From positions 859,021-923,020 of the forward strand of contig NZ_BMLX01000002.1 of assembly GCF_014645535.1 (NCBI RefSeq): a DNA stretch of 64,000 nt, in the 5' to 3' direction. Every line of letters starts with the position of its first letter. The first letter of the stretch is position 1. The notes below the pieces were generated by a model. That model did not search any database and had not been told where the DNA came from. It worked only from the letters and a program-made list of their open reading frames with translations. This document shows positions 51,608 through 53,522 of the stretch, piece after piece. The stretch comes from Silvimonas iriomotensis (GTDB lineage Bacteria > Pseudomonadota > Gammaproteobacteria > Burkholderiales > Chitinibacteraceae). The translations under genes were made by a program, and so were the position numbers.

Positions 51608-52009
51608 GCGGGGTGTCTGCCCAGGGTAAAGCGGGATACAGAGCAGATTTACCGACTGGGCCCCATACAGAATGGCAAACAGCAGCACCAACAAAAGCCC
51701 GCACCTGCGGGCCTTTGCTTTGACCAACACCGTGGCTGGCTTATTACGCAGTGGCGCAGACATCATATGCAGGCTACAGACCCAGTCGTGGCCTGAGTCA
51801 GCGAATTGTCTCCGGACTGTCGACGCAAACCACGACTGGATTTGTCAGCCGCCGCCCGTAAAGGTCTCCCTCAAACGCGTCTGAAGCAGACATATTCCTG
51901 GCACGGCTTGACCAACGCGTTGCCACACGGCGCAAGCCGATCAGCCCAGGCGCTGACCTCACCTCGCCCCTGAAGCGTGATCACGGGGATTCCGGCATCG
52001 TCCATTTAA
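51608..52009. other. Intergenic region after the amine cluster
   Basis: About 400 bases without a credible gene. A hairpin at 51697-51720 probably ends the upstream operon. The rest shows only short, unsupported frames, and leads into the ArsR promoter and operator. Confidence 0.5.
51697..51720 (+). terminator. Probable terminator of the amine cluster
   Basis: GCCCGCA, CC, TGCGGGC with CTTTGCTTT after it. The stem is perfect but the T-run is broken by C and G, so strength is moderate. Confidence 0.6.
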
Positions 52010-52062
52010 ATAGTTTTCCATGTAGAAAACCATTTGCTATAGTTTTCTACATGGAAAACTAT
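52010..52062. promoter_or_regulatory. ArsR operator: perfect 21-bp inverted repeat covering promoter and start codon
   Basis: The arm at 52010-52030 is the exact reverse complement of 52042-52062, with 11 bases between. Each arm contains the near-palindrome GTTTTC-N6-GAAAAC. A promoter TTTCCA (52015-52020), 17 bp, TATAGT (52038-52043) lies inside. The initiation point should fall at or within a few bases of the ATG at 52051, itself inside the right arm. So repressor binding covers -35, -10 and start, and the mRNA is probably leaderless. Confidence 0.8.
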
Positions 52063-52395
52063 TCAATCGCGCTCAACGGCGTATTTCACGCATTGGCCGA
52101 CCCCACAAGGCGCTCGGTGATTGCGAGGCTAGGTAGAGGCCCGGCGTCGATCAAGGAGCTTGCAGCGCCTTTCGGGCTTGGGCTGCCGTCGTTTTTGAAG
52201 CACATCAAAGTGCTGGAAAACAGCGGCCTGATTGCGTCAGAGAAGGTAGGGCGAGTGCGGACCTGCAAACTCCAACGTGGCAATTTGGCCGCTGCTGAAA
52301 AGTGGTTTGATGAGCAACGCGTCGCTTGGGAAAGCCGCTATGAAAATCTGGATCAGTTGTTAACTCACCTGAAAGGCGAACAAGATGAAAGCTGA
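52051..52395 (+). CDS. ArsR-family repressor, ArsR-SRPBCC type
   Basis: A 114-residue protein. 'VFHALADPTRRSVIARLGRG' and 'SIKELAAPFGLGLPSFLKHI' plus 'KVLENSGLIASEKVGRVRTC' form the winged helix. The metal-binding cysteines of arsenic sensors are missing, as in most members that pair with an SRPBCC protein. It overlaps the SRPBCC gene by 11 bases (ATG 52385 before the stop at 52395), so the two are coupled. No ribosome site precedes the ATG, and the promoter suggests a leaderless transcript. It should repress its own three-gene operon. Confidence 0.9.
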   Translation: MENYSIALNGVFHALADPTRRSVIARLGRGPASIKELAAPFGLGLPSFLKHIKVLENSGLIASEKVGRVRTCKLQRGNLAAAEKWFDEQRVAWESRYENLDQLLTHLKGEQDES

Positions 52396-52885
52396 GCTTC
52401 AATTTGATTTCCTCGTTAACAAAGAAAAAAACACCATCACCATCAAAAGAGCGTTTGCGGCCAAACGACAGCTGGTTTGGGACTGCTACACCAAAAGTGA
52501 GCTGCTCGACCGCTGGTTTGCACCCAAGCCTTTAATCACGAAAACCAGCTTTATGGATTTTCGTGAAGGCGGACATTGGCTCTATGCCATGGTGGAACCC
52601 GGTGGCCAGGAATACTGGGGCCGCATGGACTACCAAACGATTCGGCCCATCGACCACTACACTTCGCTTGATGGTTTTTGCGATAACACCGGCGCGCTCA
52701 ATCCGGCGCTGCCCAGATCTCAATGGAGCGTCACCTTCTCGGACGCCGAGACGCATACGCTGGTCGAGACGGTCGTTTCCTACGCGTCGGCCGAAGCTCT
52801 CCAGCAAGTCATCCAGATGGGGCTGAAAGAAGGTCTGGCCTCGACACTGGAACGTCTGGACGAACTGCTTTTAACCCTCAACTGA
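52385..52885 (+). CDS. SRPBCC/AHSA1-domain protein
   Basis: A 166-residue single-domain protein with the START-like pattern 'NTITIKRAFAAKRQLVWDCY' at the start, 'SELLDRWFAPKPLITKTSFM' and 'GGHWLYAMVEPGGQEYWGRM'. It should bind a hydrophobic ligand in the cytosol. Its gene overlaps arsR by 11 bases and is 19 bp before the DUF1801 gene. ArsR-AHSA1 pairs are widespread, usually with other DUF1801-like or DinB-like partners, but their role is not settled. Confidence 0.88.
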   Translation: MKAELQFDFLVNKEKNTITIKRAFAAKRQLVWDCYTKSELLDRWFAPKPLITKTSFMDFREGGHWLYAMVEPGGQEYWGRMDYQTIRPIDHYTSLDGFCDNTGALNPALPRSQWSVTFSDAETHTLVETVVSYASAEALQQVIQMGLKEGLASTLERLDELLLTLN

Positions 52886-52904: not shown

Positions 52905-53522
52905 ATGCCTACGCCAAAACACAATCCCAAGGTAGATGCCTACGCAGAACAGGCCGAAGACTTTGCCAAGCCCATCTTCACCCATCTGCGAAACCTGATT
53001 CATACGGTGTGCCCGGAGGTCGTTGAAGAGGTCAAATGGGGAATCCCGCATTTCGACTACAAAGGCGACATGATGTGTATCTTCGCCGCCTACAAGAAGC
53101 ATTGCTCCTTCACGTTTTACAAAGACGCGCTGATGAGCGACCCACGGCTCAAGGCCAATGATGCCCTCCCCGCTGCCAGGCGTTTCATGGGCAAGCTGAC
53201 CAGGGTGACCGACCTGCCTCCAGAAGATGAGCTGACCGCCTGGATCAAGGAAGCGATGGGACTCAATGAGCAAGGCCTGAAGCTGCCGGCACGCGAAGCC
53301 AAAACGCCCAAAGAAGTTGGCGTGCCAGCGGCATTTGCCGAAAAGCTCCAGGCCAACCCGGAGATCATCAAGATTTTCGAGAGCAAGTCGGCGTCGTTTC
53401 AAAAGGAATACAACGTCTGGATTGGCGAAGCAAAAACAGATGCCACGCGTGAAAAGCGCATCGAAGAAGCGCTAGCCTGGATCGCGGAGGGCAAGGGGCG
53501 TTTCTGGAAGTACGCCAAATAG
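52905..53522 (+). CDS. DUF1801 / YdeI-like protein
   Basis: A 205-residue protein with an N-terminal DUF1801 domain ('HLRNLIHTVCPEVVEEVKWG' and 'GIPHFDYKGDMMCIFAAYKK', about residues 15-110) and a C-terminal OmdA-like tail ('GVPAAFAEKLQANPEIIKIF', 'EALAWIAEGKGRFWKYAK'), as in YdeI-type proteins. YdeI homologues have been linked to antimicrobial-peptide stress, but no reaction is known. It ends the ArsR operon. Confidence 0.85.
   Translation: MPTPKHNPKVDAYAEQAEDFAKPIFTHLRNLIHTVCPEVVEEVKWGIPHFDYKGDMMCIFAAYKKHCSFTFYKDALMSDPRLKANDALPAARRFMGKLTRVTDLPPEDELTAWIKEAMGLNEQGLKLPAREAKTPKEVGVPAAFAEKLQANPEIIKIFESKSASFQKEYNVWIGEAKTDATREKRIEEALAWIAEGKGRFWKYAK

Follow-up and report, generated by a model that had tools for sequence, protein, structure and literature searches.

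Transcription functions are over-represented among leaderless mRNAs (PMC7563307), and in the TA-led class of leaderless genes, a TANNNT-type -10 box lying some 12 bp before the start codon takes the place of the Shine-Dalgarno sequence (PMC3160421). An autorepressor of the TetR family, AcuR of Rhodobacter sphaeroides, is encoded in a leaderless acuR-acuI-dddL operon, for which 5' RACE placed the transcription start exactly at the AUG (PMC3017554). Within the ArsR family, Rv2034 of Mycobacterium tuberculosis, from the operon Rv2034-Rv2036, is a dimeric autorepressor with a footprint from -30 to +3 relative to the gene (PMC3338718). Here we describe an arsR locus in a 64,000-nt stretch of the Silvimonas iriomotensis genome (hereafter the window) that very probably represents a leaderless ArsR–AHSA1 operon, in which the operator of the autorepressor includes the first codons of its own gene.

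A probable ArsR-type repressor operon with two predicted operator sites

The ArsR protein scores above the curated cut-offs of HTH_20 (43.2 bits; cut-off 27), HTH_5 (22.2; 22) and NF033788 (59.3; 55), and below those of the SdpR autorepressor model NF033789 (44.5 bits; cut-off 100) and the CmtR-type metal sensor model NF047906 (29.9 bits; cut-off 150). Its nearest solved homologue is PDB 3f6o (E=2e-46 with the family profile, residues 2-106 aligned), a probable ArsR-family regulator for which the accessible part of the record states neither a function nor a DNA complex. An AHSA1-like gene lies directly 3' of arsR, the arrangement that defines an ArsR-SRPBCC/AHSA1 operon, and its position suggests that it is probably co-transcribed with arsR; an AHSA1-like match is also found downstream in 72 of 112 relatives having a start-centred dyad. 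The DUF1801/OmdA gene that follows, probably the third gene of the operon, adjoins the arsR-AHSA1 pair in only 2 of the 112 relatives (the window and L034) and is therefore best viewed as a local addition. In the intergenic DNA before arsR, a 24-nt inverted repeat at 51776-51845 (79% complementary) is possibly the terminator of the upstream genes.

A preliminary description of this DNA had presented 52010-52030 and 52042-52062 as perfectly complementary inverted arms, each containing GTTTTC-N6-GAAAAC, and both statements hold. The inverted repeat can be extended to 28-nt arms (93% complementary), and the chance expectation of a perfect 21-bp inverted repeat with a spacer of 0-30 is 1.1e-6 in 64 kb of the same composition. 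The promoter elements had also been placed within the repeat. TTTCCA lies in arm 1, but a correction applies to TATAGT, which straddles the spacer and arm 2 and is not wholly within an arm. A pair of separate quasi-palindromes, each of 24 bp and with 29 bp between their axes, describes the feature better than a single long inverted repeat does (Table 1).

The axis of site 2 coincides with the boundary between base -1 and the A of ATG 52051, and its two pairs that are not self-complementary are -1/+1 and -3/+3. The site takes in the larger part of the -10, then the predicted transcription start and codons 1-4 of arsR, so that its right half reads ATG GAA AAC TAT. In inverted orientation, site 1 matches site 2 at 23 of 24 positions. 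The match includes the non-palindromic 6-bp core (6/6, compared with 2-5/6 in relatives); from this resemblance, site 1 of the window could be a recent duplication or gene conversion of site 2. Across the 4.59-Mb genome, the only exact match to ATAGTT-N12-AACTAT is site 2 at the arsR start codon, and allowing one mismatch adds only site 1 and one unrelated place. Because the exact match is single, ArsR probably controls this operon alone. The perfect GTTTTC-N6-GAAAAC present elsewhere in the genome (L142) is without the outer ATAGTT/AACTAT. A large regulon for ArsR was rejected, as the extended operator is found only at this locus.

Table 1. Features of the arsR locus in the window
Feature	Position	Strand	Details
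Predicted operator site 1, ATAGTTTTCCATGTAGAAAACCAT	52010..52033	no strand	Axis 52021|52022; overlaps -35; 9/12 self-complementary pairs
-35-like hexamer TTTCCA	52015..52020	+	17 bp from -10; at -36, like the commonest TTG of relatives
Extended -10, TGCTATAGT	52035..52043	+	Hexamer TATAGT 52038-52043 (-13..-8); TG 52035-52036; -10 begins at -13 in 91/114 relatives
Predicted operator site 2, ATAGTTTTCTACATGGAAAACTAT	52039..52062	no strand	Axis 52050|52051; 10/12 pairs
Predicted transcription start, leaderless mRNA	52050..52051	+	From -10/-35 spacing
arsR-type repressor gene, 114 aa	52051..52395	+	Pfam HTH_20 (E=3.8e-11), HTH_5; NCBIfam NF033788; PDB 3f6o
Codons 2-4 GAA AAC TAT (right half of site 2)	52054..52062	+	9/9 bases pair with 52039-52047; codon bias and co-variation in relatives
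AHSA1/SRPBCC-fold protein gene	52385..52885	+	Pfam PF08327 (E=7.7e-17); 11-nt overlap with arsR
DUF1801/OmdA (YdeI-like) protein gene	52905..53522	+	Pfam PF08818, PF13376

The dyad is centred on the start codon in many relatives

Searches of whole genomes and GTDB contigs yielded 192 non-redundant relatives, whose starts were picked solely by position in the protein profile. We defined a dyad score as the number of complementary pairs out of 12 and counted it at every axis from -90 to +39. The start-codon axis had a mean of 6.65 of 12 pairs versus 3.16 overall, with the next best axis at 4.42, and at least 7 of 12 pairs were present at the start codon in 114 of the 192 relatives (59%), compared with an average of 2.7% at axes outside ±14. 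The 59% figure is conservative, because in several relatives scored as dyad-free the start is clearly a neighbouring ATG or GTG (L138, L117 and L056 are examples). The axis remains on the start codon though the length of the N terminus varies by several residues, indicating that the dyad follows the start codon rather than the protein. Positions 9 and 10 of the dyad pair in just 52% and 44% of the best-scoring set.

Named carriers of the dyad belong to the Alpha-, Beta- and Gammaproteobacteria, Actinomycetes, Myxococcota, Bdellovibrionota and Melainabacteria, with Actinomycetota and others represented through one search only. In a plasmid collection, kept as a separate set, 10 of 12 matches have the start-codon dyad, one of them a cyanobacterium. 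An over-strict operator pattern matched one locus among 300 relatives, which reports on specificity, not prevalence.

Another dyad with the same motif is present upstream in 42 of 90 relatives, compared with 1% for shuffled DNA. It lies at several distances, about -29, -33 to -35, -40 and -50, and in the window it covers the -35. The distance classes of ~29, 34, 40 and 50 bp advance in roughly half-turn steps. On these spacings, cooperative binding on both faces at two dyads may be possible.

Other arrangements were also observed. In a related group (L095, L163, L166, L170 and L171), the starts read TTTATATAACC...GTTATGGAACA..GGTTATA, with the ATG within a palindrome whose register is unlike that of the main class, and by its sequence this palindrome is possibly a second solution to start-codon overlap. 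In a sister ArsR group (M..D.LS.TFAALADPTRR; L010, L013, L014, L027, L169 and similar), TTTAACC-N4-GGTTAAA dyads lie just 5' of the start codon, not across it.

Promoter position predicts a leaderless start

The -35 of the window agrees with the consensus at 4 of 6 bases. ATG 52051 is the earliest possible start of its ORF, with no ATG, GTG or TTG in the 21 codons before it, and it is preceded by no Shine-Dalgarno motif, as the preliminary description had stated. Among the 114 dyad-bearing relatives, 91 have their best -10 hexamer starting at -13, most have a -35 TTG at -37 to -34, and 6 have a four-base Shine-Dalgarno motif. With the -10 at -13, the -35 near -36 and Shine-Dalgarno motifs rare in relatives, the arsR mRNA is predicted to be leaderless. 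The spacing from the -10 and -35 predicts a start at -1/+1 across the family, from which we infer a transcript beginning at or next to the ATG, in agreement with the earlier proposal. The arsR gene also has the -10 of the TA-led class (PMC3160421), with TATAGT at -13 to -8 and no Shine-Dalgarno sequence.

Codons 2-4 are constrained and co-vary with the upstream arm

In the 114 dyad genes, GC3 of codons 2, 3 and 4 is 1, 86 and 0%, versus 75% in the rest of the gene, and Asn at codon 3 is encoded by AAC in 51 of 51 cases. This set was selected by the dyad, and the analysis was repeated on sets picked without a dyad criterion, giving 14, 95 and 8% in the 79 best-scoring relatives, picked regardless of dyads, and 3, 88 and 1% in relatives picked by the -10 box alone; the corresponding values in relatives without the dyad are 51, 68 and 46%. 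The base pattern of codon 2 is kept through changes of the encoded residue (Ala, Val, Leu, Pro, Asp, Glu, Thr).

In 53 of 90 relatives picked by the -10 box alone, bases -6 to -4 give codon 2 exactly when reverse-complemented, whereas the shuffled control gave a mean of 15.4 and a maximum of 31 in 5000. The independent-pair test on starred branches (treekit) was too weak for such short proteins, so we used best-tree pairs with a swap test, which asks whether the upstream arm of each member fits its own codon better than its partner's. Phylogenetically independent pairs gave ratios of 33:7 for codon 2 (p=4e-5), 25:5 for codon 3 (p=3e-4) and 30:14 for codon 4 (p=0.02), part of this signal coming from pairs with the architecture in one member only; the same pairs gave no signal at codons 5 and 6 (p=0.88, 0.23). 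Within the -10-selected class, the ratios were 8:2 for codon 2 (p=0.11) and 8:0 for codon 3 (p=0.008). The swap test and the shuffled control thus agree that the N-terminal codons co-vary with the upstream arm in orthologues, the comparison that the preliminary description had suggested. Its claim that the first codons of ArsR are constrained as operator DNA is likewise supported, in that codons 2 and 4 depart from the GC3 usual for these genes and the early codons co-vary with the arm.

Recognition-helix residues track operator bases

The protein columns most informative on operator class lie mainly in the helix-turn-helix, at residues 44-50, which we take from the family fold to be its recognition part. 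The best columns are residue 50 for base -4, residue 47 for -5, residue 44 for -6 and residue 49 for -7. When residue 50 is Q, +4 is C in 21 of 23 relatives, compared with 0 of 91 for other residues (Fisher 6e-21; this p ignores relatedness), and the upstream arm has G at -4 in 21 of 23 versus 2 of 91, with independent pairs being few (4:0:1, p=0.125). For residue 47, -5 is A in 51 of 53 relatives with A or G and in 0 of 60 with S or T, counts that ignore relatedness; independent pairs are 7:0 (p=0.016). The operator bases ±5 and ±4, which fall in codon 2, can be predicted from residues 47 and 50, respectively. In the window, K50 of ArsR is consistent with its ±4 bases, while the ±5 pair T/A is an exception found in the GAA class, mostly with G at residue 44.

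This correlation between helix and bases is the best evidence that ArsR would itself recognise the dyad across its start codon. The earlier suggestion of a repressor on each arm, covering the -35 and the -10/start, is consistent with the tracking of ±5/±4 by residues 47/50; physical binding and repression are inferred.

Proposed mechanism and alternatives

In the mechanism we propose, RNA polymerase would use the extended -10 with a weak -35 and start at the A of ATG 52051 or one base before, so that the mRNA would begin with AUG and be translated without a Shine-Dalgarno site. An ArsR-type dimer would bind site 2, where the dyad axis is the predicted start point and the right half is codons 1-4, as well as site 1 over the -35. 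Binding would block the polymerase and keep arsR, the AHSA1 gene and the DUF1801 gene off until a ligand frees the repressor. With an operator that lies in coding sequence, changes in the recognition helix and in codons 2-4 would have to go together.

The long inverted repeat could instead work as RNA, with transcripts reading through from upstream folding into a hairpin that hides the AUG, acting as a translational lock or attenuator and not as an operator. RNA of 52000-52085 does fold strongly (-34.7 kcal/mol, z=-9.5), and the two sites of the window match throughout their 6-bp core, more than in relatives, but relatives do not conserve the match in the core. In them each site is retained as a dyad in its own right, and a clear second dyad is present in only 42 of 90, at varied distance. 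Moreover, the left arm would be absent from a leaderless mRNA, and RNA pairing leaves the link to the recognition helix unexplained, making this reading very unlikely.

Less likely again is a normally led arsR with a promoter further upstream, in which the dyads would block elongation or act within the leader. The 443 nt of intergenic DNA upstream of arsR are compatible with such a promoter, whereas the family-wide -10 at -13, the -35 TTG at -37 to -34, the scarcity of Shine-Dalgarno-like motifs and the lack of an in-frame upstream start in the window argue against it. We give the least credence to general selection for weak mRNA structure near starts, by which early codons would end in A or T and the dyad would be incidental. 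AT-rich early codons are a common tendency and GC3 is mildly low at codon 5 too, but codon 3 behaves in the opposite way, with 86-95% G/C, relatives without the dyad lack the pattern at codons 2-4, and the codons co-vary with the upstream arm.

Returning to the leaderless start with a coding operator, the family data lead us to a broader proposal, which we consider likely: in a large multi-phylum ArsR subfamily, a single stretch of 24 bp would combine the roles of -10/start region, ribosome entry site and operator of the autorepressor, and its dyad axis would fall on both the transcription start and the start codon. The DNA specificity of the repressor would therefore be written in its own codon 2, of which bases 1 and 2 are predicted by residues 50 and 47. 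The same design in dozens of relatives from several phyla would make the locus more than a one-genome curiosity, providing a clear natural case, kept across these phyla, in which the DNA-binding specificity of a protein constrains its own coding sequence. It would also offer a readable specificity code, linking residue 47 to bases ±5 and residue 50 to bases ±4, and make the operator predictable from the first codons of a gene. A coding operator might provide an evolutionary reason to retain a leaderless start, and it calls for caution, as the N-terminal residues of such regulators may not mirror protein function.

Comparison with known systems

Autorepressors with leaderless mRNAs have precedents; a coding operator centred on the start and shared by a family appears undescribed, a provisional statement since our literature search covered open-access papers only. 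In that literature, we found no description of a start-codon-centred operator with coding constraint, nor of a leaderless ArsR-AHSA1/SRPBCC operon. The accessible part of a paper on Brucella ArsR6 does not give the operator position, and the term "leaderless" is absent from the Rv2034 paper (PMC3338718).

Lambda cI and Tn1721 tetR (cited in PMC3017554) and the C proteins of restriction-modification systems (PMC4824078) resemble arsR as leaderless, autoregulatory genes for DNA-binding proteins, but in the accessible portions of these sources their operators lie upstream of the gene and no start-codon-centred dyad is reported. AcuR, like ArsR, is an autorepressor encoded by the first gene of a leaderless operon, with an inverted-repeat operator that overlaps the promoter, an arrangement proposed to be widespread (PMC3017554). 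It belongs to another protein family, and its operator, TAATAGAC-N6-GTCTATTA, lies in the promoter 5' of the ATG, so its codons are not operator. Rv2034 shares with the window arsR an ArsR-type autorepressor, an SRPBCC-like (polyketide_cyc2) gene in the operon and a short palindrome at its own promoter. Rv2034 binds this palindrome, CCGTAAGT-N4-ACTTACGG, which differs in being placed just upstream of the start codon and not across it (PMC3338718).
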